Positions 1 through 34,066 of a DNA stretch of 34,066 nt are shown piece after piece. Below the pieces are notes generated by a model. It did not search any database, was not told where the DNA came from, and worked only from the letters and a program-made list of their open reading frames with translations. Origin of the DNA: a virus; IMG/VR virus record IMGVR_UViG_3300050821_009355, positions 1 to 34,066 of that record; one strand, written 5' to 3'. A program made the translations under genes and the position numbers. The number at the start of each line of letters is the position of its first letter. Positions within the stretch are counted from its first letter, which is position 1.

Positions 1-13
1 GCTTTCGCGGTAA
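1..13 (+). repeat. Partial copy of the GGTAA-tailed hairpin
   Basis: The window opens with CTTTCGC followed by GGTAA, which is the 3' arm and tail of the hairpin seen complete at 8106, 8956 and 32004. The 5' arm lies outside the window. Because complete copies sit between genes, another gene probably ends just upstream of position 1. Confidence 0.7.
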
Positions 14-23
14 AGATGTCGGC

Positions 24-159
24 AGTCGTAGCTGTTCGGTGAGTCCCGGTAGGTCACAGGCCGCCGAATAGATTTTCGGATGAATCGAGCAGCTACGACT
101 TCCGGCACGGATTCCTCAAAATCATCGCGGGCCATTGACGCGAAGGCGTGTTGGCCCGC
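24..159 (+). ncRNA. Structured leader: three-way-junction-like fold plus long hairpin
   Basis: Bases 24-38 pair with 86-100 over 15 positions, with one G-T wobble. Inside that stem, 39-42 pairs with 54-57 and 64-68 pairs with 75-79, giving a three-helix junction. A second hairpin follows: 127-133 with 153-159 (7 bp, perfect) enclosing 138-141 with 146-149 around a GAAG loop. No reading frame with a ribosome binding site lies here. It could be a 5' UTR of the capsid-like operon, a processed small RNA, or a packaging or regulatory RNA. It does not fit a tRNA. The pairing is seen in the sequence; the function is unknown. Confidence 0.5.
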
Positions 160-183
160 ACGCAGTACGCAGGACGCGGGGAA

Positions 184-202
184 CGGCCCCGGTAAGGGGC
201 CG
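184..202 (+). repeat. Short GGTAA-loop hairpin before the first capsid-like gene
   Basis: A perfect 7-bp stem (CGGCCCC with GGGGCCG) is closed by a GGTAA loop. The inner stem and loop equal those of the larger hairpins, but the outer GCGAAAG arm and the tail are absent. It ends 14 bases before the ATG at 217, just upstream of the AGGAAG ribosome binding site. Confidence 0.65.
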
Positions 203-216
203 CATGAGGAAGTCAC

Positions 217-702
217 ATGTCCACGCAGGCAGCGGCGCTCAGCGCCGAGCAGCTTCAGGCGCTACAGCAAGACCCGCAAATTCAGGAGCTCGGCGGGCAG
301 CTTTATATTGCCAAGTTGTTTCACTACATCGTGAACAACACGCATGCGGGCAACGACACGGTCACGAACTCATTTCAAATCGATTCCGACGCCGATTTCC
401 AGCTTTTGTTTTTGATCGGCAGCCGCACCAGCGCAAGCGCCACGATCGAGGTGACCGAAGGCAGCGCCGGCGGACTCGCCTGGCAGAGCAATCCCGTGAA
501 TATCGACAACTTTCTCGGGACAGCGCAGAACCCGTTCCCGGCCGGGCTCATTCCGCAACTGATGCCCAAGAAACGGTCCTACAAAGTGAAGACCGTGGAC
601 ACGAGCGGCGCGGCGAATTCGATCCAAGTGGATTTCTGGGGCTACAAACTGTACCCGGCCGCGATGGCCGCGCAGTTGGGCGCTCTGCCTTCGGGTAACT
701 AG
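217..702 (+). CDS. Jelly-roll-like capsid or minor capsid protein (putative)
   Basis: A 161-residue protein with no signal peptide or membrane segment. After a helical Gln/Ala-rich start of about 30 residues it is beta-rich, with the pattern FQIDSDADF, then WQSNPVNIDNFLG, then IQVDFWGYKLYP. This is the hydrophobic-strand layout of small single-jelly-roll or spike-base proteins of viruses. The ATG at 217 has AGGAAG seven bases upstream. It overlaps the next gene by one base (TAGTG). Together with the genes at 860 and 1447 it forms a trio of mid-size beta proteins directly after the leader, and the capsid candidate at the right end of the window would precede it in a circular genome. Capsid role is inferred from composition and context. 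Confidence 0.55.
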   Translation: MSTQAAALSAEQLQALQQDPQIQELGGQLYIAKLFHYIVNNTHAGNDTVTNSFQIDSDADFQLLFLIGSRTSASATIEVTEGSAGGLAWQSNPVNIDNFLGTAQNPFPAGLIPQLMPKKRSYKVKTVDTSGAANSIQVDFWGYKLYPAAMAAQLGALPSGN

Positions 703-863
703 TGGATCGTGGTGACAAAATCGTCGCTTGGATATTGACGATTATCTCGGTCGCCATGTATGCCGCGTTAGTCGTTCGATTCCGAGGCCACTGGGGCGCG
801 CTGATTGGCGGAGGGGCTTTTATTTATGTCTTTCTTCGCATTGAAGTCTGGAAGAAACGATGA
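702..863 (+). CDS. Small two-helix membrane protein
   Basis: A 53-residue ORF starts at GTG 702, overlapping the previous stop, and ends with TGA at 861-863, overlapping the next ATG at 860. This tight coupling on both sides is the main support. Two hydrophobic stretches are clear: residues about 6-25 (KIVAWILTIISVAMYAALVV) and about 31-47, separated by RFRGH and followed by EVWKKR. Both ends would lie on the cytoplasmic side by the positive-inside rule. It could be a small virion membrane protein or a holin-like lysis protein. Confidence 0.6.
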   Translation: MDRGDKIVAWILTIISVAMYAALVVRFRGHWGALIGGGAFIYVFLRIEVWKKR

Positions 864-1360
864 TTAATCCTTGGACACAAGGTCGCGTGCCGGGTGTCGC
901 GCCAAATCCGCCACTCGGCGGATGGCTCGTCAAGCGCAAGATGGCTTCGCCCGCCTGGACGCTTCCTCAATGGGTGCGCGAATCGCTCAAGGGCGCGCAT
1001 CTCTACTGGTACCAGTTCCCGGAGCTCGTGCTGGCCGCCGGGGAAACGCAACTCACGCGCGTGACCGTGGGCGAGGATTTCTGGCTGGTAACCATCATGA
1101 GCCACGAATCCGTGGACATCGCCAACACCGGCTCGATCCGCGCGCAGATTTACGAAGACCAGCAAACCTACAAATATTCGAAGTACGGCTCGAACAAAAT
1201 CAATTTTGCGGGTAATGCGCGGGAGCCTGGCCTGAATTGCATCCCGCACTTTATCGCCGCAGGATCCCCGGTCAACTGCCGCGTGCAGAATCTCAGCGGC
1301 ACGCTTTCCAATACGGTGGACATCTGCATGTTCGGCTATTCCGGCTGGTGGAGGGAGTAA
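860..1360 (+). CDS. Capsid- or spike-like beta protein
   Basis: A 166-residue protein with no membrane segment. Residues 1-45 are basic and Trp/Pro-rich; from about 50 to the end alternating strands predominate (LTRVTVGEDFWLVTIMSH, then NTGSIRAQIYED, ending DICMFGYSGWWRE). Size, strand pattern and position match the proteins at 217 and 1447, so a paralogous or co-assembling capsid component is likely. The ATG overlaps the upstream stop (ATGA). I cannot name a family. Confidence 0.5.
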   Translation: MINPWTQGRVPGVAPNPPLGGWLVKRKMASPAWTLPQWVRESLKGAHLYWYQFPELVLAAGETQLTRVTVGEDFWLVTIMSHESVDIANTGSIRAQIYEDQQTYKYSKYGSNKINFAGNAREPGLNCIPHFIAAGSPVNCRVQNLSGTLSNTVDICMFGYSGWWRE

Positions 1361-1446: not shown

Positions 1447-2163
1447 ATGGCCTACGACAAACTTTTTGCCGATCCTTCGGACGCCGCGGGCGAGCCGAAC
1501 ATCACGAATGCCGCCGCGTCCTCGATTCGCGCCTCCACGTGGCCCTACGCCGCGCGCGCGGACCGCTCGCTCGCACCGCCGATCGTGCTGCGTCCGCCGG
1601 CCGCGCCGTCGCAGACCGACGACCCGCTGATTTCCTCGATCTACGATCTTTCCGGGGTGATGCAGCAGGTGCAGCGCTCGGCGCGCCTGATTTCCGCGCC
1701 CTGGCTGATCGAGCCTCCCGACTCCGAATCGTTCCACAACGCGGCCGGTATTCTCCTGCCGGCCATTTCCGCCACGAACTTCACCACGGTCTTGAGCATC
1801 ACCTGCCCCACGGGTCGCAACGGCGTGATCAAGGAAATCGCCAACGTAATCGTGGGCGGCGCCTGGGCGGACTTTTCCGGGGCCGCTATCTGGCAAATCG
1901 TGCGCAACCCCGGAGCGGGCACGAATACCGGCGGCTTTGCCGAGCGCAACTACGAGAACATTCAGGCGTCGCTCGGCCTCGTGAACGCGCCAGTAAAAAT
2001 TTCCGGCATCCGCATTTTTGAAAACGATGTGATCCGTTGGGTCGTGCGCAACGTTTCGTTGCCCACGTCGGGAGTCGGAGCGGGCGCGCTCCTGGGCGGC
2101 TATTTCTATCCCAAGACGTGGGACGACCAGTTCGACGCCAGCGACAAGCCCAACGCCTGGTAA
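1447..2163 (+). CDS. Capsid- or spike-like beta protein, larger paralogue type
   Basis: A 238-residue protein, soluble by sequence. The first 75 residues are Ala/Pro-rich and probably extended; from about 95 on it is beta-rich (FTTVLSITCPTGRNGVIKEI, then GAAIWQIVRNPG, VKISGIRIFENDVIRWVVRN). The strand order with a C-terminal GGYFYPKTW block resembles the ends of the proteins at 217 and 860. Start ATG at 1447 is preceded by a weak GGGG element because the heptamer array occupies the upstream gap. Probably a virion surface or vertex component; no family recognised. Confidence 0.5.
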   Translation: MAYDKLFADPSDAAGEPNITNAAASSIRASTWPYAARADRSLAPPIVLRPPAAPSQTDDPLISSIYDLSGVMQQVQRSARLISAPWLIEPPDSESFHNAAGILLPAISATNFTTVLSITCPTGRNGVIKEIANVIVGGAWADFSGAAIWQIVRNPGAGTNTGGFAERNYENIQASLGLVNAPVKISGIRIFENDVIRWVVRNVSLPTSGVGAGALLGGYFYPKTWDDQFDASDKPNAW

Positions 2164-2204: not shown

Positions 2205-2360
2205 ATGAAGTTGCGAGCGGTGAATGCCGCCGATCTTCGCAAGCGCGCGGAAATGGTGAAGATCAGCGAAGGCGATGAAGACCTGGCCGTTTTAATTCCG
2301 TGGCCGCTGTACGTGGAAATGGCCAAATTGATCGAAGCGATGAAGCGGACGGTGCTGTGA
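2205..2360 (+). CDS. Small hypothetical protein
   Basis: A 51-residue, mostly helical charged protein (MKLRAVNAADLRKRAEMVKI, then LAVLIPWPLYVEMAKLIEAM). I chose ATG 2205; a TTG at 2169 in the same frame would add 12 residues. Neither has a strong ribosome binding site. Its stop overlaps the next ATG (TGATG), indicating translational coupling to the secreted protein downstream. No family recognised. Confidence 0.45.
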   Translation: MKLRAVNAADLRKRAEMVKISEGDEDLAVLIPWPLYVEMAKLIEAMKRTVL

Positions 2361-3532
2361 TGGCTCGACGTAAACTGAACATCCCGAAAGCGGCGCAGAT
2401 TCGCGGCATACGCAAGGCTCTGGCGAATCGCAAAACGCCGCGGCAATTCATTCCCGGCCTGAAAAAGCGACTGGCAAAACTGACAGCCTGCATCCTCTTC
2501 GCCTTCGCGGCGGCGTCCGTGGCGCGCGCGCAGGCTCCAGTCTCGATCGTACCGATCCAGCAAACCTTGGCCGCAGCTGGGACCGCCTGCATGGGAAGCG
2601 CTCAATCCTTTACCGCAAATAATCGAAACCAGAATCAGCACACGGCAACGCTCGTTCTTTCCGGGTCCACTGCCGTCGTTTCGCTGCAAATTCAAGGTGT
2701 CGATTCGGCGGGAAATACGTTCATCATTTCGCCTACGGCTCAAGGCGGCGCGCTTTTCAATGGCGTCAGCGCGATCGTGAGCGCATCGGGCTACTATCCG
2801 ACAATCAACGTGCTGGTCACTTGCACGGTCGGAAGCACCTTTACGCTGAGCTATGTGGGAACGCAGGCCAGTCCCGTAATTTTGGCAGGTACGCAATTGC
2901 TCAGCCTGATCGATCAGCAAATTTTCACGGGATTGAGTGGCAATCAGAATAGTATTGTTTTCAATACTCCATTTGGGAATTCATCCGGCATCGTTCGATT
3001 TAATTACGTCACCACACCGGGCGCGGGCGGATCGATTCAGGTACTTTGTTTTACCGCCATCGGCGGCGTTAGCTCTCAATCCTTGCAGTTTATCTTCCCG
3101 CTGGCCAATTCCACGGCCACGCAGGTTTTCAAGGTGCCGCAATCTACCTGCACGCAGGCCCAGCTTATCTACACTGCTGGCGCGGCCAGCGGGAATGCCA
3201 ATGAGGAATACGTTTTCGATTTGCCCGGAGATGCCGTCAATACCACGCTGGGCAGCTACACCCATATCGTGGGAACGACGGCTACGGCAGTCAAGGCCAC
3301 GGCCGGCACGCTTCTAAATATCGTGATCAACACCCCTGCGGCCGGCACGATCAGCGTCTTTGACCTGGCGACGGCGGCCTGCACGGGCACGCCATCGACG
3401 AACACGGTCGCAGTGATTACGGTTGCGTCGGCGACGGATGCGCACGCCACGTTCAGCTATAACGATGCACTTTTGAACGGGATCTGCGTCAAGGCCAGCG
3501 CCGCGATGGACATTACCGTCTCAAGTCAATAG
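2360..3532 (+). CDS. Secreted beta-sandwich protein with N-terminally extended signal peptide
   Basis: A 390-residue protein. Residues 1-40 are unusually long and basic, followed by a hydrophobic core at about 41-55 and a cleavage-like ARA|QAP site, so it looks like a Sec signal peptide with a long n-region. The rest is Thr/Ser/Ala/Gly-rich with beta strands and scattered cysteines (pairs around CMGSAQ, TCTVGS, CFTAIG, CTQAQ, ACTGT, GICVK), compatible with tandem immunoglobulin-like or beta-sandwich domains stabilised by disulfides. Start ATG 2360 overlaps the upstream stop. It is the first of three consecutive exported proteins, so a surface fibre, spike or host-exposed adhesin is likely. 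Confidence 0.6.
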   Translation: MARRKLNIPKAAQIRGIRKALANRKTPRQFIPGLKKRLAKLTACILFAFAAASVARAQAPVSIVPIQQTLAAAGTACMGSAQSFTANNRNQNQHTATLVLSGSTAVVSLQIQGVDSAGNTFIISPTAQGGALFNGVSAIVSASGYYPTINVLVTCTVGSTFTLSYVGTQASPVILAGTQLLSLIDQQIFTGLSGNQNSIVFNTPFGNSSGIVRFNYVTTPGAGGSIQVLCFTAIGGVSSQSLQFIFPLANSTATQVFKVPQSTCTQAQLIYTAGAASGNANEEYVFDLPGDAVNTTLGSYTHIVGTTATAVKATAGTLLNIVINTPAAGTISVFDLATAACTGTPSTNTVAVITVASATDAHATFSYNDALLNGICVKASAAMDITVSSQ

Positions 3533-3545: not shown

Positions 3546-5639
3546 ATGAAAAAACTTCTCGCAGCGGGCTTTTTTCTTGCTTCCTGCCTCCTGCTTCCGG
3601 CCTCCAGTTACGCCCAGTTCACCACGGTGACGGCCACGGTGCAGGACCCGAACGGCATCCCCTACTCCGGCGCGATCATGAACGCCATCCTCGTGCCCGG
3701 CGCATCAGGTGGATACCGGCTTGGCGGGCAACCCTATTCCGGGCGCGTGGGACCCGTGACGCTAGACATCAATGGCAGTTTTACGGCGCAATTCGGCGAC
3801 GTCACCCTGATCACTCCCGGCAGCCCGCAATGGCAAATCACCATCGATTCCGCCGCCGCCACGATCCTGCCATCGCTGGGCACCGGCCCGCAGAGCTTCA
3901 CCTATACGAGCAGCGGCACCACGATCAGCGGCAGTTCGCCCGTGAGTCTCACGACCGCGTTGAACGCTCTCGCGCCCAAGCTCACGAATTTCGCAAGCGG
4001 CGGATCTGGGACAATCAGTTGTGCGATTTCAGCAGCAGTACTTTTTGAAACTGCTGCAAACACGGCTGGCTGCGCGACTGGATTTACGTTTTCGACACCA
4101 AATCTCACGATCCCGCTGAATGGTGCGTACGAAATCAATGGCGTTCCGATGCTTTTTTCTCCTGGACAGGGCAGCTCGCTCAACAATCTCGGCGTCGGCG
4201 GTCCCTCTACACTCTCGGCCATCACCACGGGAGTCAACAATGTGGCGGTAGGGCCATCTACAATGAATTTGACTACGTCCGGTTCTGGAAATACCGCCGT
4301 TGGTACTGGCGCCTTAGGTAGCGAAGCGGCAGGAGCGAGTAACAACACTGCGGTCGGATGGGATGCCTTACCATCCGTCACATCCAGTGCAAATACGGCC
4401 ATCGGCGAGGGTTCACTAGCGTCATTGATTTCCGGCAATAAAGATACCGCCGTAGGAACGGGAAGTGGCGGAATCACCACGGGTAGCTCGAATACCTTCG
4501 TCGGATTCGTTGCCGGAGGAAACACCACAACGGGAGGATCGAATATTATCCTCGGCGCAGATGATAATAATACGGTAACGACGGGAAGCGGTAACCTCGT
4601 TATTGGAAATGCTTTAAGCGGAATCACAAACACCTCGAGCAATCAGCTTGATGTGATGGATGCGATCATCGGTACGGGAATGAATGTACCGGCGACATCG
4701 ACCGTCGAATACAAAGGCAATCTAAAAATCGATGGAACCTGCACGGGATGTTCGAGTGGCGTGACTTCATTTTCCGGTGATGGCACGATCATCACGAACA
4801 GCGCTTCGACGGGCGCGGTGACGGCCACTATCGCGGGTACGAGCGGTGGTCAACCGTATTTCAATTCCGCATCATCTTGGGCATCTACAGGCGTTCTGGC
4901 GAATCACGCGATCCAAACTGGTGGTGGAGCGGGCGGTGCACCTACCACGGGCAATGGCGACTTCACAATCGATTCGACGGCGCATACGCTCCTAGCAGGT
5001 GCTGCCGGGCTTGTTGATTTACACGCCGAAGCAACGAGCGGGTTCAAACCGCCAGCAAGCGCTTCGACGTCGGTAACTGCGGCAGGCGCGTTAATGTATA
5101 GTTCTCAATTTGGTTCTGCCTTGCAATTAGGAACAGGGGCTTCTCAGGCGTGGATGGCTTGGGCTGGGGCCGTAGGATCGGGCAGTACCACATGCTCTTC
5201 AGCTTTTCAATACGTGACAGGAATCTCCGCGATCGCTGCGCCGACCTGTTCTTCTTTGGCCGTAGCCGGGGCGTTTACATCACAAAGAAACGAAACCGCT
5301 ACCGATAACAATGTATTGACGGTAACTCCAAATGCAGCGCCGGAAAGTTTTCGGGTCCGATTTGTACTTTCGGTCTCCGCAGCGACTGCAGCCGTGCTTG
5401 GCTGGACGATAACGTGGAAAGATTCCAACGGAAATGCGCAATCTCCAACGAATCTGACTCTCACTCAATCTGGTAGTGCTCTTCCCGCGCTTACTTTTAC
5501 CACCAGCGCAGCTGGGGATTATTACGGTCAAGCCGACATCGACGTCGATAATTCAGCGACGAACATCGTCGTCAAGTTCTTGTTGACCGGTGGCACGATC
5601 ACCGCGAAAGCTACAGCCACGATCGAAAGAATTATCTAA
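3546..5639 (+). CDS. Secreted receptor-binding fibre with YadA-head-type repeats
   Basis: A 697-residue protein. Residues 1-24 are a signal peptide (KK, hydrophobic core, SYA|QF); a LASC sequence at 11-14 also resembles a lipobox, but cleavage there would leave a hydrophobic N-terminus. Residues about 25-160 form a domain almost identical to that of the next gene. Residues about 225-360 carry repeated N-T-A-V-G units (GNTAVGTGAL, NNTAVGWDAL, ANTAIGEGSL, SNTFVGFVAG), the beta-roll repeats of YadA-type adhesin heads and phage tail fibres. The last 120 residues look like a compact beta-sandwich, perhaps the receptor-binding tip. Likely trimeric. The predicted export signal is odd for a phage fibre. 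ATG 3546 is preceded by GAGGAAAA. Confidence 0.75.
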   Translation: MKKLLAAGFFLASCLLLPASSYAQFTTVTATVQDPNGIPYSGAIMNAILVPGASGGYRLGGQPYSGRVGPVTLDINGSFTAQFGDVTLITPGSPQWQITIDSAAATILPSLGTGPQSFTYTSSGTTISGSSPVSLTTALNALAPKLTNFASGGSGTISCAISAAVLFETAANTAGCATGFTFSTPNLTIPLNGAYEINGVPMLFSPGQGSSLNNLGVGGPSTLSAITTGVNNVAVGPSTMNLTTSGSGNTAVGTGALGSEAAGASNNTAVGWDALPSVTSSANTAIGEGSLASLISGNKDTAVGTGSGGITTGSSNTFVGFVAGGNTTTGGSNIILGADDNNTVTTGSGNLVIGNALSGITNTSSNQLDVMDAIIGTGMNVPATSTVEYKGNLKIDGTCTGCSSGVTSFSGDGTIITNSASTGAVTATIAGTSGGQPYFNSASSWASTGVLANHAIQTGGGAGGAPTTGNGDFTIDSTAHTLLAGAAGLVDLHAEATSGFKPPASASTSVTAAGALMYSSQFGSALQLGTGASQAWMAWAGAVGSGSTTCSSAFQYVTGISAIAAPTCSSLAVAGAFTSQRNETATDNNVLTVTPNAAPESFRVRFVLSVSAATAAVLGWTITWKDSNGNAQSPTNLTLTQSGSALPALTFTTSAAGDYYGQADIDVDNSATNIVVKFLLTGGTITAKATATIERII

Positions 5640-5646: not shown

Positions 5647-7782
5647 ATGGGAAAACGATTTTTGATTCTAATCTGCTTTCTCCTTGGGTTGGCCAGCCCT
5701 TCGTTTGCGCAGTTCACCACGGTGACGGCCACGGTCCAGGACCCGAACGGCATCCCTTATTCCGGCGCGGTGATGAACGCGATCCTGGTACCCAGCACGG
5801 GCGGCGGATATACGCTAGGCGGGCAACCCTATTCCGGGCGCGTGGGACCCGTGACGCTCGATTCCACTGGCAAATTCACCGCGCAATTTGGCGACGTAAC
5901 GCTGATTACCCCCGGCAGTCCTCAATGGCAAATCACGATCGATTCGGCGGCAGCTACGATTCAACCGCCGCTCGGAACCGGCCCGCAGAGTTTCACCTAC
6001 ACGAGCAGCGGCACCACGATCAGCGGCAGTTCCCCAGTGAGCCTTACCACGGCATTGAACGCTCTCGCGCCGAAGCTGACAAATTTCGCGACTTCTGGGA
6101 CGGTAACGAATGTCTCTGGGACATCTCCAATCGTTTCCTCTGGTGGCACGACGCCCGCCATCTCCTGCCCGACGTGTAATACCACGGTACCGCTCGCTCC
6201 GAACGGGCCGGGAATTCCGCAGCCGAATGGAACAACTTACGATCCCACGAATTTCGGCGCCAAATGGGACGCCCTAAGCGTAGTCGGCTGTTCCGGCACT
6301 GGCGGGCTGTTTGTCGTTACGTGCTCCAACGCGAATTTCAATATCCTAACGGATGTAGGTAAGGTGTTTTGGGGTTCGGGAACGCCGAATGCGACGCCGG
6401 ATGTTCCCGCTACCACGATCAGTACCGTCAACAGTTCCACGCAGGTCACTCTTACGGGCGCCCTTGCGCGTACAATGGTCGCAGGACAGATCGTCTATGG
6501 TCATGATGACACTACGCAAATCAATAACATGTGGGCAGCGCTTCTCACAAATGTGAATTGCGGCCATGCTCACTTCCCGTCTGGTGGAACAATTTTTTCC
6601 TCACAAATCATGACCACGGTTTCCCCGACCTGCACGTTCAATCAAAACAATCTCGGCTATACCCTGGCGGGCGAAGGCCAAATGAGTACGCAGTTTTTCG
6701 TGCCGCCGAACTTTACCTATTTCAGTCCCAGTAAGTGCAGCAATACGAGCATCGGCGCGTGTTTCGGTCCGGGTGCTGCCATTTACAAGGATTTTCAAAT
6801 CAGCGCCGGATTCGATCCCAACGGGGAAATTTACGCGAATACTTATAATGGGTGCTGGTTCCCTCTCGGTTCAACCGGGGCCATGCAGAACATCAACATC
6901 GCTGGTTTCATCGTCCCTGGAACGATGCGTACGGTGTGCGTCAGCACCGGCATTGCCACCATCTCGAATACTTTTATTCAAGCAAGTGGGAATGGAGGAA
7001 GTCCGTGCTCGGCACTGGGGATCGCAGGCGGCGACATCACCGTAGACGTGCTGTACGTGAATTCCGTCTGCACCAATGACGGTGGGGCCATCACGGCAAG
7101 CGGGCCAGACAACAATTTTTACAACGTATTCGACAGCGAAGCCGTGCAGAACCCGATTTTGATTACCGGGGGATCGTCTGATTTTTTTTCTCTCGCCCTG
7201 GGTGACGGCATCAAAGCGACGGGAGCCGGGACACAGGTCCACATTTCCAACAGCGACGTGGTCGAAAACGTTGCCAGCCTTACGAATATGATCACGGCTG
7301 CCGCCGGTGCAACCGTTACCCTCAGCGGATCGCGTTTTTCCAACGTCGCTGCGGGAACCAATTACGTCGTAGGCGTGGATGCGACTTCTACATTCATCGA
7401 TGGCTGCGGAAATACGTTTTCGTCGAATACGGCGACCGCGAATGTTAGCGCTGGCGGAATATTCGTCCCCTGTCCAGGCACGATTTACAAGGGAAGCCCA
7501 TCCACCCCGACCCTGACAGGTACCGGAGCATGCGCCACATTCAGCACGCAAAATGGCACATTGTACTACGGCTCGTTCGCATGCTCGGGAACGACGGGTG
7601 CGGCAACGATCACTATTACGCCGGGCACAACGGCATCTCACGGGTTTCGATGCGCGGCCTCGGATACGACGACTCCGGCGAACACAATTCCCACGGGACC
7701 ATTGGCTACGGGCGGCTGCGCCTTCAGTGCGGCAAACATCGCAAACGGAGACATAATCAGTTTTGAAATGATACCTTTTTGA
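5647..7782 (+). CDS. Secreted tailspike-like protein, pectate-lyase-type beta-helix
   Basis: A 711-residue protein from ATG 5647. Residues 1-21 are a signal peptide ending SFA|QF. Residues about 22-158 repeat, nearly residue for residue, the N-terminal domain of the preceding gene (QFTTVTATVQDPNGIPYSGA, then GSPQWQITIDSAAATI). After about residue 190 the sequence switches to the NFGAKWDA ... DDTTQINNMWAAL pattern that opens right-handed beta-helix tailspikes, with long beta-helical repeats after it. This is the plan of enzymes that bind or cut host polysaccharide; I cannot identify catalytic residues. The two genes form a modular pair with one attachment domain and two receptor modules. Confidence 0.75.
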   Translation: MGKRFLILICFLLGLASPSFAQFTTVTATVQDPNGIPYSGAVMNAILVPSTGGGYTLGGQPYSGRVGPVTLDSTGKFTAQFGDVTLITPGSPQWQITIDSAAATIQPPLGTGPQSFTYTSSGTTISGSSPVSLTTALNALAPKLTNFATSGTVTNVSGTSPIVSSGGTTPAISCPTCNTTVPLAPNGPGIPQPNGTTYDPTNFGAKWDALSVVGCSGTGGLFVVTCSNANFNILTDVGKVFWGSGTPNATPDVPATTISTVNSSTQVTLTGALARTMVAGQIVYGHDDTTQINNMWAALLTNVNCGHAHFPSGGTIFSSQIMTTVSPTCTFNQNNLGYTLAGEGQMSTQFFVPPNFTYFSPSKCSNTSIGACFGPGAAIYKDFQISAGFDPNGEIYANTYNGCWFPLGSTGAMQNINIAGFIVPGTMRTVCVSTGIATISNTFIQASGNGGSPCSALGIAGGDITVDVLYVNSVCTNDGGAITASGPDNNFYNVFDSEAVQNPILITGGSSDFFSLALGDGIKATGAGTQVHISNSDVVENVASLTNMITAAAGATVTLSGSRFSNVAAGTNYVVGVDATSTFIDGCGNTFSSNTATANVSAGGIFVPCPGTIYKGSPSTPTLTGTGACATFSTQNGTLYYGSFACSGTTGAATITITPGTTASHGFRCAASDTTTPANTIPTGPLATGGCAFSAANIANGDIISFEMIPF

Positions 7783-8101: not shown

Positions 8102-8105
8102 GTGA

Positions 8106-8140
8106 GCGAAAGGCCCCGGCGAGGAGCGCTTTCGCGGTAA
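8106..8140 (+). repeat. Bulged GNRA-loop hairpin with GGTAA tail
   Basis: GCGAAAG pairs with CTTTCGC, one unpaired G follows, then GCCCC pairs with GGAGC (one mismatch) around the loop GGCGA, and GGTAA follows at 8136. Here the loop is GGCGA instead of GGTAA, so the G+GNRA pattern is kept. It lies directly upstream of the gene at 8150. Confidence 0.8.
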
Positions 8141-8148
8141 GACTGTCC

Positions 8149-8949: not shown

Positions 8950-8955
8950 AAAGGA

Positions 8956-26390: not shown

Positions 26391-26591
26391 AGAAAAGCCT
26401 CTTTTCCCCTTGCCAAGCGTGCCTAGTAAAGCACACGGAATGGGGGGTTGTCACCCTTGCAATGGGTTGGTCCAATCGTTGCAGTAATCATTGAATCCAA
26501 TGGGATTGTAGTTTTCCTACGCTAAAACGCAAGGCATCCTTGCTCCCGTCAGCAAAAGGCCCCGGTAAGGGGCGCTTTTGCGCTAAATCTG
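26391..26591. promoter_or_regulatory. Divergent control region
   Basis: About 200 bases separate the - strand gene at 26390 from the + strand gene at 26592, so promoters for both directions are expected. A 26-base dyad at 26458-26483 (TGCAA ... TTGCA with TTGGTCCAA at the centre) and a palindrome-like ATCCAATGGGAT near 26494 may be operators. I could not identify clear -35/-10 pairs. Confidence 0.5.
26552..26586 (+). repeat. Bulged GNRA-loop hairpin, GCAAAAG variant
   Basis: GCAAAAG pairs with CTTTTGC (the compensated variant also seen at 24733), G bulge kept, GCCCC/GGGGC inner stem, GGTAA loop. The tail reads GCTAA instead of GGTAA. The ATG at 26592 follows five bases after the tail. Confidence 0.8.
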
Positions 26592-27416
26592 ATGATTTTT
26601 GAGACCACGCCGGGATTGCTTTACGCCGCGCCGCTGCTCGGCGGCGACGAAGGCACGGAACAAACCGTGGCGATGCTGCGCTCGCTCGTCGATGACGCGT
26701 GGAAAGACCCGTTCGTCAATCGCACGGCCATCGAAATCATCCGCAACGCGGGCGTGGCTCCCTTCGATCAGTGGGGCCAGATTCGCGCCATCTACGATTA
26801 CGCGCGCTCGTTTTATTTCGTGAACGATCCCATCACCAAGGAAGCGGTGCGGCCCACGCGCGAGCTCCTGCAACTGAAGGCCGGCGACTGCGATGACATC
26901 AACGCCAATATTTTGCCGGCGCTGCTCGGCACCATCGGATTTGAAACGCGGCTCGTGACTGTGGCCAGCGACCCGAACGTGCCCGATTATTTTTCACACG
27001 TGTACTGCGAAGTTTTCATTGACGGCGATTGGTACCCGCTGGATGCCGCGCGCCCCGGAGCCGTGATCGGCGTGGCTCCGGCGCATTTTTATCGTCGCGC
27101 GTGGTGGAGTCTTACGGACGGCTCGCACGGCGACTATCCCGTCGATGGAACCGGAATGCATGGATATCGCCCGCAAGTGCTGCGCGGGTTAGGAAACGTC
27201 ACGTCGGATTTGTCCGCGATTTTCGCGGATGCCAGCGGCGCGCTGCGTTCCGTGGGCGGGCAAAGCGTGCAGAACGTGCTCGGCCCATCGATCGGGCCGG
27301 GCGGCGCCGCGATGCAGGTTCCGCCCGCGCCGCAGCCGTTTCTTTCGTCCGGGCTTGGCGAACTGCTCGTCGTGGGCGCGATTCTCGGCGGCATCTGGCT
27401 GTTGACGAGAGACTGA
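26592..27416 (+). CDS. Transglutaminase-like cysteine peptidase with C-terminal membrane anchor
   Basis: A 274-residue protein. The catalytic triad of the transglutaminase/papain-like fold is visible: Cys100 in AGDCDDINA, His136 in YFSHVYCEV and Asp151 in WYPLDAARP. Residues about 255-271 form a membrane helix (LGELLVVGAILGGIWLL). Proteins of this fold act as peptidases, peptidoglycan amidases or cross-linkers; here it is probably a virion membrane protein that processes capsid or host-envelope components. It opens the + strand membrane-protein cluster. Its only leader is the GNRA hairpin and GCTAAATCTG, with no Shine-Dalgarno. Confidence 0.75.
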   Translation: MIFETTPGLLYAAPLLGGDEGTEQTVAMLRSLVDDAWKDPFVNRTAIEIIRNAGVAPFDQWGQIRAIYDYARSFYFVNDPITKEAVRPTRELLQLKAGDCDDINANILPALLGTIGFETRLVTVASDPNVPDYFSHVYCEVFIDGDWYPLDAARPGAVIGVAPAHFYRRAWWSLTDGSHGDYPVDGTGMHGYRPQVLRGLGNVTSDLSAIFADASGALRSVGGQSVQNVLGPSIGPGGAAMQVPPAPQPFLSSGLGELLVVGAILGGIWLLTRD

Positions 27417-27594: not shown

Positions 27595-28548
27595 ATGTCT
27601 TACGCGCGGCTCACAACTCGGAATCCCAACGGACTGCATCCTAGTCTGCGCGGCGGGCTCGGTTTCCTCGGCGATACCGCGAATCCCACGCTGACCGCCG
27701 AAGCCGCGCTGCAGCAAGCCATTTCCGCCTACGGTTCCGCGCACCTGAATCCCAAACAGTTTCAGGACCCCGGCTGGCTTTCCCAAGCGGCGAACGTGAT
27801 CCAATCGACGCAGTTTTCCGTCACCGGCGGATTTGGTCCCGATTGCGCCGGGCAAACCGCGCAGCCGCTGAATCTGTTCAAGACGGCCAGCGGGCTGGCG
27901 CTCAGCACTGGCGCGGCCACTACGGGAATCCTGGCTAGCACGCACGTGATCGCCGCCGCGGCCGTGCCAGTGATTGGTTGGGTCGTAGCCGGTGTGGGCG
28001 CCATCATTTCCCTGATCGGTGCCATTTTTCAGCATCACGCGCAGGCCGAGGCGCGCGATTTACAATTCGGCTGCTCGGCGATTCCTGCGGTGAATAACGC
28101 GTTCGCCGTCATTCGCCAGGGCGTGCAGGACGGTACGATCAAGCCCGCCGACGCCGCGGCCGCACTGCCGCAAATCTACGAGAACTACATGTCCGCGGGC
28201 GGCGCGTCCGGTTCGGCCACGGGGCCCGGCGCGATTCCGAGTGGCGGAAAAGCCATCAACGATTCGCCGTGGTGTAATTCCAACTGCGAGCTGAGCGTTG
28301 TGCTCTTGGGAATGGTTTTTTACTGGCAGGCGCAGTTTCAAGCGCTCGCAGCGCAGGCAGCCTATGAATCGCAGCAAGCGGCCGCCGCGTCCCAGCCTTC
28401 GGCGACATCGCCCGTGTCGCAGGGCGGCAGCACGGTTCCGAATCTCGTTTCTTCGCCGCACACCCCAGGCAGTTTTTCGCTTTCCGAAATTCCGGCGTGG
28501 GGATGGATCGCGCTGGCGCTCGCTGGCGCATGGGCGGTAGCGGGATGA
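27595..28548 (+). CDS. Multi-helix membrane protein, virion-like
   Basis: A 317-residue protein. The N-terminal TRNPNGLHPSLRGGLGFLG motif is shared with the protein at 28603. A hydrophobic hairpin occupies about residues 108-145 (HVIAAAAVPVIGWVVAGVGA, then IISLIGAIF), and a further helix closes the protein (EIPAWGWIALALAGAWAVAG). A stretch ELSVVLLGMVFYWQAQF near 245 is also hydrophobic. The middle and C-terminal parts are Ala/Gln-rich. Ribosome binding site AGGAAA. Likely a major internal-membrane protein. Confidence 0.6.
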   Translation: MSYARLTTRNPNGLHPSLRGGLGFLGDTANPTLTAEAALQQAISAYGSAHLNPKQFQDPGWLSQAANVIQSTQFSVTGGFGPDCAGQTAQPLNLFKTASGLALSTGAATTGILASTHVIAAAAVPVIGWVVAGVGAIISLIGAIFQHHAQAEARDLQFGCSAIPAVNNAFAVIRQGVQDGTIKPADAAAALPQIYENYMSAGGASGSATGPGAIPSGGKAINDSPWCNSNCELSVVLLGMVFYWQAQFQALAAQAAYESQQAAAASQPSATSPVSQGGSTVPNLVSSPHTPGSFSLSEIPAWGWIALALAGAWAVAG

Positions 28549-28602: not shown

Positions 28603-28941
28603 ATGGCATACGCGCGGCTGACAACTCGAAACGTGAATGCGCTGCATCCGAATTTTCGCGGACTAGGCGCCTACGCCGCGCTGTCCACGCAAAACCGCAA
28701 TGGCCTAAGTCCGAATTTCAGAGGATTGGGCGACACTCCGCTGACGAATATTTCCTTCGGCCCCGGCGGGCAGTTTTCCATCAGCACGGTCACGACGCCC
28801 ACGCAGGAAAGCCTTTCGGATCAAGTCCTGACGTGGCTCAGCGAATCCACATTCGTGCCCGGCATGCCCAATTCGGTGTTTGCCATCGGCGGAGGTTTGC
28901 TTGCGCTCGCCTGGCTCTTTGGTGGGAGGCGACGGCGATGA
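28603..28941 (+). CDS. Virion membrane protein with PGxPN C-terminal anchor (type 1)
   Basis: A 112-residue protein. Two N-terminal repeats of TRN/TQN...GL(H/S)PNFRGLG occur at about residues 6-22 and 29-43. After a short beta part, the C-terminus has LTWLSESTFVPGMPNSVFAI, a hydrophobic helix GGGLLALAWLFGG and RRRR. The motif PGxPN, helix, basic tail is shared with the next proteins. It probably anchors the protein in a membrane with the N-terminal part exposed. Confidence 0.7.
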   Translation: MAYARLTTRNVNALHPNFRGLGAYAALSTQNRNGLSPNFRGLGDTPLTNISFGPGGQFSISTVTTPTQESLSDQVLTWLSESTFVPGMPNSVFAIGGGLLALAWLFGGRRRR

Positions 28942-29084
28942 TGGTCGGAAACCGTAGCGGGAGAATATCCGCTCCTTATCTCGTCGAGCCTCTCAGATCG
29001 CGTACTTACGTGACGTGGTTCATCGACGCAGAGGTACGTGTACGTGGGCCGCGTCCCGACCGATTGGATGATCTCACAAAATGA
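28938..29084 (+). CDS. Small basic hypothetical protein
   Basis: A 48-residue ORF from ATG 28938 (ATGA overlap with the previous gene), ending in a stop overlapping the ATG at 29081. Tightly coupled on both sides. No membrane segment; SAPYLVEPLRSRTYVTWFID looks like a strand-rich domain. No family recognised. Confidence 0.5.
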   Translation: MMVGNRSGRISAPYLVEPLRSRTYVTWFIDAEVRVRGPRPDRLDDLTK

Positions 29085-29797
29085 GCTACGGCATGCTCAA
29101 TTCGCCGCTGCCTGGACTCACCGTTTCGTCCACAGGCGAACGCCGCTGCGGGATGCGTGGCTATCAGCCTGGTGCGCATGCGCTCTTGGGCGACGATTCC
29201 ATCGACTACACGGACATGACTTCGCTGATCGATCCCTATTCCGCGCCCGTCGATACCGGCATCCTGACGGATTTGCCGCTGCCGAATCAGCTTTCGCCGT
29301 CGCTCGAGTCTCTCTATCCCACGATCGTGGGCACGGAATTCACCAGCAACGGCGACGGTACCTACACGAACATTCAGACCGGGCAAACCGTGCCGTACTC
29401 GATCGCGGAACAAATCACGCAAGCCACGGCTCCCGTTGCGGTGGATACCACGCCCACGGGGCAAGGCCCGGAAGTGACCATTCAGGATCCCAATACGGGA
29501 GCCACTTCTTCGATCAGCACGAACAACCTGACCGCCGCCGCGCAAGCGCTGCAGGCCGCCGGCCAGCTCGTGAACGCTGCCGGGCAACTCACGTCGCAGG
29601 GCCGCGCGCTCCTGAACGGCGGAAATTTGTATCGGCTGCCGCCGTCGACGGGAATTTCGGGCGCAATGTCTTCGCTTACGTCCTGGATGACGGGCTCGAC
29701 GCTGTTTCCCGGCGTGCCGAATCTCGCCGTGATCGGCGGGGCGGTAGTTCTGGTGATGGTTCTGCCATCGATCATGCAGAGGAAAAAGAGGCGATGA
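29081..29797 (+). CDS. Virion membrane protein with PGxPN C-terminal anchor (type 2)
   Basis: A 238-residue protein. GYQPGAHALLGDD near residue 27 is shared with the protein at 30244. The middle is Thr/Gln-rich with beta and helical stretches. The C-terminus is MSSLTSWMTGSTLFPGVPN, a membrane helix LAVIGGAVVLVMVLPS, and MQRKKRR, the same module as at 28603 and 29794. Likely a spike- or capsid-linking membrane protein. ATGA links to both neighbours. Confidence 0.7.
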   Translation: MSYGMLNSPLPGLTVSSTGERRCGMRGYQPGAHALLGDDSIDYTDMTSLIDPYSAPVDTGILTDLPLPNQLSPSLESLYPTIVGTEFTSNGDGTYTNIQTGQTVPYSIAEQITQATAPVAVDTTPTGQGPEVTIQDPNTGATSSISTNNLTAAAQALQAAGQLVNAAGQLTSQGRALLNGGNLYRLPPSTGISGAMSSLTSWMTGSTLFPGVPNLAVIGGAVVLVMVLPSIMQRKKRR

Positions 29798-30219
29798 TCG
29801 CGATCAATCATCCCGCTCTGGGCATGAATCCGCATCAAAGCGGCGGTGACTGGACACCTATTTACGGCCCGGGTAGCCGCGCCGTGATGCCGCAACCGTT
29901 GCAACCGGTTCGTTCCGTGCAAACGACGCAGCCGGTCGCGCCCCCCGCGCCCGCGCCGGCGACAGTTCACGCTTTGCCGCCGGCTCCGAGCGCGACTCCG
30001 CCGCAGCCTTTGCCCATCGATTTGCAAGCTGCCGTTCCCGCATCGGCCGGCGCGACGGGCGGCACAGACGCCGCAGCCGCCGCTGCGAGTGCTCCCTTTT
30101 CGTTGAGCGACTGGCTGACGGAGGAAACGCTTTTTCCAGGCTATCCCAACGGACTCGTCGCCGCTGGCGGCGTGATCGTACTGGCTTGGATTATGGGCGG
30201 AAAGAAAGGGAGACGCTAG
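29794..30219 (+). CDS. Virion membrane protein with PGxPN C-terminal anchor (type 3)
   Basis: A 141-residue protein. Residues 30-90 are Pro/Gln/Ala-rich and extended, then FSLSDWLTEETLFPGYPNGL, a hydrophobic helix AAGGVIVLAWIMGG, and KKGRR. A long flexible stalk with a C-terminal anchor suits a capsid-membrane tether. ATGA overlap with the upstream gene. Confidence 0.7.
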   Translation: MIAINHPALGMNPHQSGGDWTPIYGPGSRAVMPQPLQPVRSVQTTQPVAPPAPAPATVHALPPAPSATPPQPLPIDLQAAVPASAGATGGTDAAAAAASAPFSLSDWLTEETLFPGYPNGLVAAGGVIVLAWIMGGKKGRR

Positions 30220-30243: not shown

Positions 30244-31083
30244 ATGTTGTTCCCGAATCATCCCGCGTACGCCGAAATCAGGCCCGGCATGGGGTTGGCC
30301 TACATGCCTGGCGCGAACGCGCTCGGCTATCAGCCCGGCGCGCACGCGCTGCTCGGTTACCATTCCGGCGCGCACGGCAACCTGGGCGATTTTTCGTCCA
30401 GCATGGAAAGCGCGGCGGTGGATTCGGGATACTCACAGAGCGATCTTGATTTGCTGAATTCGCTGGGAGCCACGGATCAGGATTTGGAAAACCTGATCAA
30501 TAAAAATATAACGCTTACCGCGTTATATGCCGAGTACGGCGTCACGATTCCGTCCGGTTCGACGGCCACGGCGAATTCTTCTTCATCGACGCCGATCATG
30601 TACAACGCGCCGCCGCAAGGACCATCGCCCGCCGCCGCGGGGCAAGTGCCCACGGGCAGCCAGGTTCATTACGTCGCGGGTTGGTCGCCAATTCACGGCA
30701 GCATTTCTGACGTGCAATCGGCCCTCAGCACGAAACTGCCGTCCTATGGAATGCAGCTTGTGGGGTTTTCTTCCACCGGCAGTTCGCTCCTGGGCATCGG
30801 CACAGCGGGATTCACGGCGCAGGTCGCGATCACCGGAGTGGGCTTCGCGCTCCTGAGCGACGTGCAATCCATCCTCGTGACCATCGTGCAAAGCGTGATC
30901 GGCACGGGCCATCTGACCACGAACGAAATTTCCTTGGTTTCGACGCCGTCGACGCCGGTGGGCACGACTCCTGCATCCGATTCGAGCCCATTGGCATGGA
31001 TTGAAAACAACGCGATCTACATCGCAGGCGCGGTGGCGGCCTTGGTGTTGCTGAATAATTTCACGGGCGGCAAACGCCGCTAG
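30244..31083 (+). CDS. Virion membrane protein with GYQPGAHALLG repeats and C-terminal anchor
   Basis: A 279-residue protein. Residues about 16-50 hold repeats GLAYMPGANALGYQPGAHAL, then LGYHSGAHGNLGD, related to the 29081 protein. Residues about 145-235 resemble a domain with VHYVAGWSPIHGSISDVQSA and an internal hydrophobic stretch (FALLSDVQSILVTIVQSVIG). The C-terminus is NAIYIAGAVAALVLLNNFTGG followed by KRR, without PGxPN. Probably part of the same membrane set. Confidence 0.65.
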   Translation: MLFPNHPAYAEIRPGMGLAYMPGANALGYQPGAHALLGYHSGAHGNLGDFSSSMESAAVDSGYSQSDLDLLNSLGATDQDLENLINKNITLTALYAEYGVTIPSGSTATANSSSSTPIMYNAPPQGPSPAAAGQVPTGSQVHYVAGWSPIHGSISDVQSALSTKLPSYGMQLVGFSSTGSSLLGIGTAGFTAQVAITGVGFALLSDVQSILVTIVQSVIGTGHLTTNEISLVSTPSTPVGTTPASDSSPLAWIENNAIYIAGAVAALVLLNNFTGGKRR

Positions 31084-31141
31084 CGAAAGGCCCCGGCTCG
31101 CACGGCGAGTGCGGCGCAAAAAAGGGGCGCTTTCGCGGTAA
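31083..31141 (+). repeat. GNRA-loop hairpin with nested insert and GGTAA tail
   Basis: GCGAAAG/CTTTCGC outer stem, G bulge, GCCCC/GGGGC inner stem. The loop is replaced by a 29-base insert containing CGCAC-GGCGA-GTGCG, shared with the copy at 24733 and followed here by an A-rich run. The tail GGTAAAGGAG supplies the ribosome binding site of the gene at 31156. Confidence 0.8.
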
Positions 31142-31155
31142 AGGAGAAAGAGACG

Positions 31156-32000: not shown

Positions 32001-32003
32001 AAA

Positions 32004-32038
32004 GCGAAAGGCCCCGGTAAGGGGCGCTTTCGCGGTAA
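32004..32038 (+). repeat. Bulged GNRA-loop hairpin with GGTAA tail
   Basis: The canonical form, identical to the copy at 8956 in stem, bulge, loop and tail start. The tail continues GGTAAGGAAGTC, so it provides TAAGGA, a Shine-Dalgarno match, before the ATG at 32047. Confidence 0.85.
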
Positions 32039-32046
32039 GGAAGTCA

Positions 32047-32769
32047 ATGCTAGCGGGAGCCGATCACGGGATCAGCAAGGCCAACATCGTCACGGGCGCG
32101 GCGAAAGATCTCGATTTGTGCCTGAAAATCAGCCGCGAGCGCATGCGCGCAGGTCCGCGCAAGGGCTACAACATTTTCGGCATGATCGAAACGATTTATT
32201 TCGAGCCGGATCGCGATTGCCGCATGCCGCTTGAAAAAGCGGCCAAGGTGGGGCGGCGGCTGTATTGGCCAGAGAATGGTCCGATTCTCGCCGTCAGCGT
32301 CCCGGAAAGCGATCTTTTAATTGTGTCGCGGCTGCCGCTGCGCCGAGGTCTCGCCTGGCTGCCAGACGTTCCCGATCCAGCGCGCCCGGCGGAAAATCCC
32401 TATGACGTGGACCAGCACGGGCAATCGCATCTCACGCCCGACGAAAAAGAGCACGAAGCGCCGAAGTTCAAGCAACTGCTCGAGGAAGTGGCCAGCGCCA
32501 AGTTTCGGAATTTCCTGATCTTTCATCCCGTGGCGCAAATCATCGCCATTCCCACAGGTTCAAAAAAGGCGACCTGGGCGTCGCTTGGCAGCGTGCGTCA
32601 ACCGATTTCATCGTTCAGTAGTTTCGACGGCACGAAGATGGCGATGCTCGTCGATCCGTACACGGGCGAAATGTTTTTGAAGGGCGGCCGCGCCAGCATC
32701 TCGGATCATCTTGATCCGAGTGCGGTGCCGCAAAAGGCGGCCGCGCCCTTAGTGAATTTGGGAGCCTGA
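32047..32769 (+). CDS. Hypothetical 240-residue protein
   Basis: A soluble protein with a helical start (NIVTGAAKDLDLCLKISRER), a beta-rich middle (PILAVSVPESDLLIVSRLPL) and further blocks (AKFRNFLIFHPVAQIIAIPT). No signal peptide or membrane helix. It follows the hairpin at 32004 and abuts the next gene. No family recognised; probably a virion or assembly protein by context. Confidence 0.5.
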   Translation: MLAGADHGISKANIVTGAAKDLDLCLKISRERMRAGPRKGYNIFGMIETIYFEPDRDCRMPLEKAAKVGRRLYWPENGPILAVSVPESDLLIVSRLPLRRGLAWLPDVPDPARPAENPYDVDQHGQSHLTPDEKEHEAPKFKQLLEEVASAKFRNFLIFHPVAQIIAIPTGSKKATWASLGSVRQPISSFSSFDGTKMAMLVDPYTGEMFLKGGRASISDHLDPSAVPQKAAAPLVNLGA

Positions 32770-32770
32770 C

Positions 32771-33334
32771 ATGGCAATCGTCAGACTCGTGAATCCGACG
32801 TATGACGCTCGCCGGCGTCGCGCGGAATCGAGACACCACAACGGCGGGGAAGGAGGTTTTCCTATGGCACGTCACAGACATCGCAATCCCTTTGCCGCCG
32901 GCAGCATCAATTCGCTGGCGGTGAAGGTGGTGGGCGGTTTCGGTGGGCTCCTCGCCGCGTCTGCGGTGCCCGCGATGGTCAGCCCGACACTCAATACGGG
33001 TTGGGCCGGCGCGGGTATGGCCTTCGGCGTCGCGTTTCTGGGCGCATGGCTGCTCAATAAAATGAGCGTCAACGCCAGCGAAGGTTTTCTGATCGGCGGG
33101 GCGGTGCAGGGCGCGTCCCGTGTGGTCACGATTCTGACCGGCAGAACGCTGGTCAGCGCTTCGCTCGGGCAGTACGGGCCGCTGAACTTCACCATTCCCA
33201 CGCCCGCGTATCAGCAACAGCCGGCGATCGCCGCGTCCGCGTCCAAGACCACGCCCGCCAAGGGCGGCGCTCAAAGCGCCGCTACGATGGGCATGCTTGG
33301 CCCGCGCCGCGCATTCTCGAAGTACGTCAGCTAA
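32771..33334 (+). CDS. Membrane protein with two in-frame starts
   Basis: The long form begins at ATG 32771 (187 residues); a second ATG at 32864 is preceded by an excellent GGAAGGAGG and gives a 156-residue form starting MARHRHRNPFAAG. The ribosome binding site favours 32864 as the main product; the 31-residue extension is basic (DARRRRAESRHH). Hydrophobic stretches lie in about residues 55-100 of the long form (VKVVGGFGGLLAASAVPAMV, then GMAFGVAFLGAWLLNKM), and the C-terminus is Ala/Thr/Gln-rich. Likely a second major virion membrane protein next to the capsid gene. Confidence 0.6.
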   Translation: MAIVRLVNPTYDARRRRAESRHHNGGEGGFPMARHRHRNPFAAGSINSLAVKVVGGFGGLLAASAVPAMVSPTLNTGWAGAGMAFGVAFLGAWLLNKMSVNASEGFLIGGAVQGASRVVTILTGRTLVSASLGQYGPLNFTIPTPAYQQQPAIAASASKTTPAKGGAQSAATMGMLGPRRAFSKYVS

Positions 33335-33345
33335 CCAGTGATCGG

Positions 33346-33401
33346 CCCGCCGTCGCCAAACTTCGGCTATGGCGGGTAAACGCTCTCAGCTAAACGCTGA
33401 G
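33346..33401 (+). promoter_or_regulatory. Hairpins in the leader of the capsid candidate
   Basis: CCCGCC (33346-33351) pairs with GGCGGG (33371-33376), followed by GTAAA, and CTCAGC (33385-33390) pairs with GCTGAG (33396-33401) around a TAAAC loop. AAAGGAG and AAGGAAA then precede the ATG at 33421. The GGGTAAA after the first stem echoes the GGTAA tail of the repeat family, but the fold differs. Confidence 0.5.
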
Positions 33402-33420
33402 GGAAAGGAGACCAAGGAAA

Positions 33421-34066
33421 ATGAAAAGTCTGAATGCAAAACGATTCGCTCATTTGCCGGAGATTTCGGCGCACGAAATCGGCAGACCCCGTTTCCGCCT
33501 GCGCAACATGCTGGCGGCCGGGCTCGGCGATTTCGTGGTTCAGCCGGAATGGGACTACTACGGCGTGGCGGTGTCGACGGCGGTTGTGAAGCAAACGCTG
33601 TTCTCGATCGTGCAGAACAATAACTTCACCATCACCGGCGGCGCGACCGTGGCAAAAACCCTGCAAATGACCAGCATGGTCCAGCCAAACCAGTTACAGG
33701 CTCCCGAGCGGATGCTCGTTCGTGGAATCTGTTGCGTTTTGGATAACCTGTGCAACCAAACCGACGCCATCAAGTTCGGAAGCCAAACGATCGTGAACTT
33801 CTTCATCTCCACGAAGTCGTTCTTCGTGATCGCGCACTTCATGAAACTTCCGGCGGGCGGCGGCCTCTGGGCGCAGCAATTCGGCGCCACGGCGGCCACC
33901 ACCATCATCGGGCCGGTTGGAAACGGCATGCCATCGGAGCACCAGGGATTCCGCTTGACCGATCCCGGATGCGACGGCACTCCCGGCATCGACCAGTTTC
34001 CCAACATCGACGGCATTTTGATCGCGCAGCAACAGGCGTTCAAAGTGGAAGTCGATCCGACGCTGG
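33421..34066 (+). CDS. Double-jelly-roll-like major capsid protein (partial, putative)
   Basis: The frame is open from ATG 33421 to the window end (215 residues seen, no stop), so the gene is truncated by the boundary. It is beta-rich with TLFSIVQNNNFTITGGATVA, then TLQMTSMVQPNQLQAPERML, LVRGICCVLDNL and VIAHFMKLPAGGG. The block T-x-x-M ... P-x-Q-L-x-A-P-x-x-x-L-V-R-G-I resembles the beta-strand region of double-jelly-roll capsid proteins of PRD1/PM2-type phages, as I recall their alignments. No search was possible. Position after membrane protein genes and, in a circular genome, before the capsid-like trio supports a capsid role. Confidence 0.6.
   Translation, partial: MKSLNAKRFAHLPEISAHEIGRPRFRLRNMLAAGLGDFVVQPEWDYYGVAVSTAVVKQTLFSIVQNNNFTITGGATVAKTLQMTSMVQPNQLQAPERMLVRGICCVLDNLCNQTDAIKFGSQTIVNFFISTKSFFVIAHFMKLPAGGGLWAQQFGATAATTIIGPVGNGMPSEHQGFRLTDPGCDGTPGIDQFPNIDGILIAQQQAFKVEVDPTL

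Follow-up and report, generated by a model that had tools for sequence, protein, structure and literature searches.

A nearly complete 34-kb virus genome from a probable new group of tailless, membrane-containing bacterial viruses

The IMG/VR virus record IMGVR_UViG_3300050821_009355, 34,066 nucleotides (nt) long and analysed here over its whole length as the window, probably derives from a tailless, membrane-containing bacterial virus with double-stranded DNA that belongs to a new, previously unlinked family-level group. We put the probability of this reading at about 70%. A virus without a tail but with an internal membrane best explains the combination of a packaging-type ATPase, a membrane-rich late cluster, a lytic enzyme with an anchor, candidate vertex proteins of the beta-sandwich type and the lack of tail and terminase genes in complete genomes. 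A first-pass annotation of the same DNA had proposed a divergent PRD1/PM2-like phage. The tailless and membrane-rich character, the FtsK/HerA-type ATPase, the anchored lytic enzyme and the large genome stood up to analysis; a capsid fold linking the group to PRD1 and PM2 would be a further step, and no sequence relation of its structural proteins to theirs was found. Because the double-jelly-roll (Varidnaviria, Bamfordvirae) and single-jelly-roll kingdoms are defined by the capsid fold, we assign the group to neither. Genes are named below by their first position.

Genome completeness and relatives

Ten other IMG/VR records (34.5-37.5 kb) were recovered identically by the ATPase query and by the query with the product of gene 33421, and one further fragment, of 18.8 kb, surfaced with the 217 protein as query. 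All ten relatives were examined over their full length, and their gene order is that of the window. In nine of them the two termini carry identical sequence, an exact direct overlap of 127, 119, 99 or 77 nt; these lengths match usual assembler k-mer values, and the start points vary along the gene order. The exact overlaps and differing start points indicate that these nine genomes, 34.4-37.4 kb long, are complete and either circular or circularly permuted. No inverted terminal match was found in the window; the overlaps at the ends of the relatives are direct. In the window, gene 33421 (33421-34066, plus strand) is cut by the record end at residue 215, the relatives' versions having 253-254 residues. 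About 375 nt separate this position from gene 217 in the relatives; the window has 216 nt of them, so that only about 160 nt are absent. The window is thus a nearly complete genome of about 34 kb. Its large size had been pointed out before and is matched by the relatives; the earlier caveat that tail genes might lie on DNA outside the window has to be dropped, since only those 160 nt are absent and the nine complete relatives are likewise without tail genes.

A core of genes is present in the same order in all ten relatives: 26592, 27595, 28603, 29081, 30244, 32771, 32047, 33421, 217, 860, 1447, 2360, the N-terminal domain of 3546/5647, the ATPase gene 16910 and 25071. The methyltransferases, a helicase-methyltransferase fusion and the lysozyme are variably present. 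What Pfam and PHROGs identified was confined to genes for replication, DNA modification and lysis, together with one transglutaminase-like core and one spike-like protein. When distant relatives of the ATPase, 33421, 217 and 1447 proteins were sought in IMG/VR, only the same group and the 18.8-kb fragment were returned, by pattern-based searches that could miss more remote ones. A collection of genomes from 84,980 species yielded no relative of the ATPase or of 33421, and so no host or provirus, and literature searches returned no publication that we recognised as describing the group.

In the window, Pfam and PHROG searches detected neither a terminase, portal or HK97 capsid gene nor any gene for a tape measure or tail, in agreement with the first-pass annotation. 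The same held for three complete relatives (G003, G006 and G008): among the matches listed for their roughly 90 open reading frames there was no terminase, portal or HK97 capsid, and no tube, sheath or tape measure either; the PHROG list was complete for G003 and comprised the best 25 families for G006 and for the pooled set, and Pfam was complete for all three. Hence the large terminase subunit, portal and HK97 capsid of Caudoviricetes were found neither in the window nor in these relatives. In the three relatives, PHROG names containing "tail" come from domains of lysozyme, transglycosylase or spike type. In the window, "lytic tail protein" and "baseplate hub subunit and tail lysozyme" denote lysozyme and transglycosylase domains, and "tail spike", like "virion structural protein", denotes the secreted 3546 protein. 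A terminase PHROG match of the window's FtsK/HerA-type ATPase was not significant (E = 0.045).

The ATPase, the structural candidates and the membrane proteins

The gene at 16910-18682 (minus strand) encodes a candidate FtsK/HerA-type packaging ATPase, recognised by hhalign profile comparison, with a possible C-terminal winged-helix region. Its Walker A motif is GQTQLSGKT, and a Walker B-like strand, VIVPEA, ends in PE instead of DE. The block that follows, GKNSP...RKAG...SQ....VDK..LRAC, includes a sensor-type glutamine and is collinear with PM2 P9, with which it shares GK.SP, RK.G and Q....DK..R.C. The core (residues 1-362) is 88-95% identical within the group. In single-sequence hhalign comparisons PM2 P9 ranked first of 252, without significance, and the score of the block against PM2 P9 was reached by 9 of 2,000 shuffles. 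A profile of nine packaging ATPases from corticoviruses, Vinavirales and tectiviruses scored 43.5 against the window ATPase (E = 5e-5), which ranked third among 262 sequences and families, below the packaging ATPase of tectivirus PR772 and E. coli FtsK; the best unrelated entry scored 22.9. These comparisons support the FtsK/HerA-type assignment that had been made at first pass, and the protein would serve in DNA packaging. The relation to PM2 P9 is visible only by profile comparison, as PM2 P9 used as a query found no match in the 11 genomes. The DUF87, TraG and Terminase_6N models did not match the window ATPase, and what a degenerate PEAQDF scan returned outside the group were chance matches only. 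Since PRD1 P9 itself matches no Pfam model, the missing Pfam match of the window ATPase is no argument against the packaging class.

Of all proteins in the group, the 33421 product is the best conserved: in the ten relatives it is 84-96% identical (median 95%). It is soluble by hydropathy, and its gene lies between that of the hydrophobic membrane protein 32771 and the 217/860 pair. Given this conservation, the solubility and the flanking genes, it is probably the major capsid protein, no other product being as good a candidate. It had no significant match in Pfam, PHROGs, the PDB or phages.

The adjoining genes 217-702 (plus strand, 161 amino acids (aa)) and 860-1360 (plus strand, 166 aa) occur in all ten relatives. 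Their products scored an hhalign probability of 87 (E = 4e-6), the top value among 91 pairs of window families, and by this sequence comparison they are paralogues. An AlphaFold2 (AF2) model of the 217 protein, built from an alignment of both subfamilies (predicted local distance difference test (pLDDT) 75, predicted template-modelling score 0.68), has N-terminal helices followed by a single beta-sandwich. With VIA-align, the model scored Z 8.1 against the STIV turret and Z 7.7 against chain 6h82_b of the haloarchaeal membrane virus HHIV-2, where 111 of 135 residues aligned (model residues 9-143 on chain residues 39-173); in such a list the absence of a family does not exclude that family. The HHIV-2 penton is disordered over its first 40 residues, and in HCIV-1 the corresponding protein consists of one beta-barrel preceded by a helix at the N-terminus (PMC6414509); on these grounds 6h82 chain b is probably the penton. 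The predicted fold of 217 is compatible with a penton or vertex protein without proving it, the resemblance to the HHIV-2 penton being weak and not unique. Foldseek matches of 217 to a lysozyme inhibitor and furin were set aside as generic beta-sandwich similarity (template-modelling score ~0.3). The next gene, 1447-2163 (plus strand), encodes a conserved 238-aa protein of the structural cluster, 63-78% identical in all relatives and without a phage homologue.

A hydropathy scan found strong or moderate hydrophobic segments in the products of 26592, 27595, 29081, 30244, 32771, 8150, 19745 and 20871, and weaker C-terminal segments in those of 10282, 28603 and 29794, which accords with the at least eight membrane proteins counted earlier. 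The anchored transglycosylase was likewise confirmed: gene 10282-10782 (plus strand) encodes an SLT-type enzyme (Pfam SLT_3, E = 2e-21) with a C-terminal hydrophobic segment as membrane anchor. In five relatives only its final 25-40 residues match, from which it appears that the anchor was retained and the enzyme part replaced.

Most of the other membrane proteins are encoded on the plus strand from 26592 onwards. The 26592-27416 product has a transglutaminase/papain fold (PF01841, E = 5e-8) and a C-terminal membrane segment; a candidate Cys/His/Asp triad (GDC..FSH..PLD) is kept in all 11 genomes, and the protein is possibly a maturation protease. The membrane protein 27595-28548 (transmembrane score 2.38) has an N-terminal RG(G)LG motif, seen as RG[LM]G in relatives, and the small C-terminally anchored protein 28603-28941 has two RGLG motifs. 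Three further C-terminally anchored proteins follow: 29081-29797, ending in FPGVPN, a transmembrane segment and KKRR; 29794-30219, whose start overlaps the preceding stop (ATGA); and 30244-31083, assigned by hydropathy like the first of the three and sharing with it a short C-terminal similarity. The hydrophobic membrane protein 32771-33334, immediately upstream of 33421, is 59-78% identical in all relatives.

The adjacent 28603, 29081 and 29794 products end in a common module, W....(T)(F/I)PG.PN followed by a hydrophobic stretch and then a terminus rich in K/R. Relatives have this module too, and it may be a shared virion-membrane anchor or sorting signal. The motif [LMFV]RG[LM]G occurs at residue 197 of 26592, residue 18 of 27595 and residues 18 and 39 of 28603, and in nearly all relatives. 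Pooled over the window its count is five, one of these being in the ATPase, compared with 0.5 in shuffled sequences; none of 1,000 shuffles reached five, for a pattern that was picked after the motif had been seen. It resembles GG-type protease sites, and the 26592 enzyme could be the corresponding protease.

A late plus-strand cluster, which begins at 26.6 kb, crosses the record ends and continues to about 8 kb, holds the transglutaminase-fold membrane protein, the C-terminally anchored set, a multi-hydrophobic protein, 33421, 217/860, 1447 and the secreted spike candidates. In the infection cycle that we propose, the spikes would attach to the host, whose wall the anchored transglycosylase would then breach; a polymerase of the host, aided by the DnaB helicase of the phage, would copy the DNA; membrane proteins and capsid protein would assemble into an icosahedral shell enclosing a membrane vesicle; and the FtsK/HerA-type ATPase would pump the DNA into the particle.

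Rival readings and known tailless viruses

Several observations weigh against a tailless membrane virus. The ATPase gene is found with the replication genes on the other strand and does not adjoin the capsid genes, although SH1 has a comparable split. The top structure match of the 217 model is the non-viral monooxygenase PHM (Z 8.5), other beta-sandwich proteins match too, and the scores fall within the range reached by unrelated beta-sandwiches. Profile comparison of 33421 with PM2-type, PRD1 and FLiP capsid proteins gave no match, and no sequence relation was found between the structural proteins of the window and those of PRD1, PM2, FLiP, P23-77 and SH1. What the first-pass annotation called capsid-like beta proteins is borne out in part, by the predicted beta-sandwich of the 217/860 pair; no double jelly-roll was found by sequence or structure comparison of window proteins, profile searches of the PDB gave nothing usable, and the AF2 model of 33421 (seven sequences, pLDDT 27) is meaningless and was not used. 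Finally, the 34-37 kb of the group are about double the 7-18 kb of prokaryotic double-jelly-roll viruses in a survey based on major capsid proteins (PMC5894146) and exceed the 28-31 kb of sphaerolipoviruses (PMC12643093).

Three other readings are less likely than a tailless membrane virus. The window could stem from a tailed phage in which terminase, portal and capsid, as well as the tail proteins, are without exception too divergent to be detected, given that among the structural proteins the secreted one alone has a known relative and that the DnaB, lysozyme and methyltransferase genes resemble tailed-phage versions. We regard this as unlikely: there is no terminase-like ATPase, the sole translocase-type ATPase being of the FtsK/HerA class; no long coiled-coil gene of the tape-measure kind was noticed; the membrane proteins, at least eight, sit mostly in the late cluster; and the three complete relatives repeat the absence of terminase, portal, HK97 and tail matches among those listed.

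An equally improbable alternative is a membrane-vesicle virus without a protein shell, similar to pleolipoviruses or plasmaviruses, in which the anchored proteins would be envelope spikes and the soluble beta proteins internal or spike subunits. The common anchor module of several C-terminally anchored proteins and the distance of the ATPase gene from the late genes would suit it, but the most conserved late products (33421, 217, 860 and 1447) are soluble and free of membrane segments, and known pleolipovirus and plasmavirus genomes are far smaller than those of the group. Least probable of all is a mobile element of non-viral nature, such as a plasmid, that has an FtsK/HerA DNA-transfer ATPase and a secreted or membrane apparatus. 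FtsK/HerA ATPases do serve conjugation and partition too, and no virion has been seen; against this stand the phage lysozyme, the anchored transglycosylase and the spike-like protein, together with the lack of any TraG/VirD4-type match and of a relaxase match in Pfam.

Among known tailless viruses, Corticoviridae/Vinavirales (PM2) share with the window group a circular genome, an FtsK/HerA packaging ATPase and membrane proteins, and the PM2 capsid protein P2 has 269 aa compared with 254 aa for the window candidate. PM2 differs in its 10-kb genome, a third of the size, and in having a replication initiator where the window has a DnaB-type helicase, an opposite-strand ATPase and a transglutaminase-fold protein. 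Nor is there structural-protein similarity, including to P2, a negative sequence comparison that is weak by itself; genome size and helicase further place the window outside Corticoviridae. Sphaerolipoviridae/Matsushitaviridae (SH1, HHIV-2, P23-77) also have genomes large for tailless viruses. In SH1, as in the window, ATPase and capsid genes lie on opposite strands, and the HHIV-2-type penton weakly resembles the 217 model in its beta-sandwich and N-terminal helix (PMC6414509). Single-jelly-roll tailless viruses (Halopanivirales) build their capsids from two major proteins, each with a single vertical jelly-roll, and neither 217/860 nor other window proteins matched VP4/VP7 or VP16/VP17 in sequence; in place of the linear genome with inverted terminal repeats of Sphaerolipoviridae, the relatives show direct overlaps of 77-127 nt. 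Tectiviridae (PRD1, PR772) share the packaging ATPase superfamily, a transglycosylase gene and membrane proteins, but have a linear 15-kb genome, their own DNA polymerase and terminal protein, and a 395-aa double-jelly-roll capsid protein; no DNA polymerase gene was found in the window.

A bolder version of the tailless membrane virus, which we consider doubtful, would make the group a new order-level lineage of tailless membrane phages of about 35 kb, with a capsid outside known families and virion membrane proteins matured at [LMFV]RG[LM]G by the transglutaminase-fold cysteine protease. Such maturation would be comparable to the cleavage of GG-type sites by the adenovirus protease.

Tailless phages are under-counted, as their proteins diverge fast and most surveys begin from known capsid proteins; with a capsid candidate that has no detectable relative, this group would be missed by capsid-based searches. 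If its members do contain a membrane, their genomes lie beyond the prokaryotic double-jelly-roll and sphaerolipovirus ranges, and 11 complete or nearly complete genomes make the capsid question testable.

Spike-like proteins, remaining genes and intergenic repeats

Three secreted-type proteins are encoded on the plus strand downstream of 1447. That at 2360-3532 has a hydrophobic N-terminal segment, is variable (44-68% identity in relatives) and is a possible vertex or receptor-binding protein. The 697-aa product of 3546-5639, a host-binding or spike candidate, has a signal-like N-terminus by hydropathy and matches PHROG virion structural (E = 1e-11) and tail spike (E = 2e-6) families; only its N-terminal ~160-190 aa are kept in most relatives. 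A second spike candidate, 5647-7782, has a duplicated N-terminus: positions 3612-3911 and 5707-6006 form a 300-nt direct repeat, 83% identical, beyond which the tandem proteins diverge. In relatives the same N-terminal spike domain carries differing downstream parts, resembling interchangeable host-binding proteins on one base. The first-pass view that the virus has its own secreted receptor-binding proteins thus has its basis in signal-like N-termini and one weak similarity to a tail-spike family.

A phage lysozyme (11631-12062, plus strand; PF00959, E = 7.5e-10; PHROG_7 endolysin, E = 3e-18) is the endolysin candidate. On the minus strand, 22602-24071 encodes a DnaB-like replicative helicase (Pfam DnaB, E = 7e-28; AAA_25, E = 4e-28; PHROG_19) that is present in all ten relatives, with only 33% identity in one. 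Two accessory minus-strand genes encode a helicase-DNA methyltransferase fusion (13558-16155; PHROG_16, E = 1e-115), 94% identical in one relative and 29-43% identical or absent elsewhere, and a cytosine-C5 DNA methyltransferase (24068-24736; PF00145, E = 1e-5) found in two relatives. Conserved proteins of 439 aa (25071-26390, minus strand; 57-69% identity) and, in the late cluster, 240 aa (32047-32769, plus strand; 64-86% identity) occur in all relatives. A conserved 280-aa protein at 8998-9840 looks glycosyltransferase-like by eye (DSD motif) and had no Pfam, PHROG or NCBIfam match.

Two kinds of repeats were seen between genes. A hairpin, GCGAAAGGCCCCGGTAAGGGGCGCTTTCGC followed by GGTAAG, recurs at 8104-8147, 8954-8997, 12403-12446, 26550-26593 and 32002-32045, with partial copies at 1-20, 181-200, 24733-24780 and 31083-31148. 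Several copies end immediately 5' of a start codon, and folded copies had z-scores of -2.6 to -3.9. The hairpin core is similarly numerous in relatives G004, G006 and G007 and scarce in the others; it is possibly a regulatory, terminator or REP-like element. Heptamer-like arrays (AGTTGAAAGTTGACAGTTGA / CTTTCGACTCTCAACT) occur in both orientations at 1364-1437, 10208-10282, 20221-20270, 21644-21719 and 24892-24975, some of them extending into the coding ends of genes.

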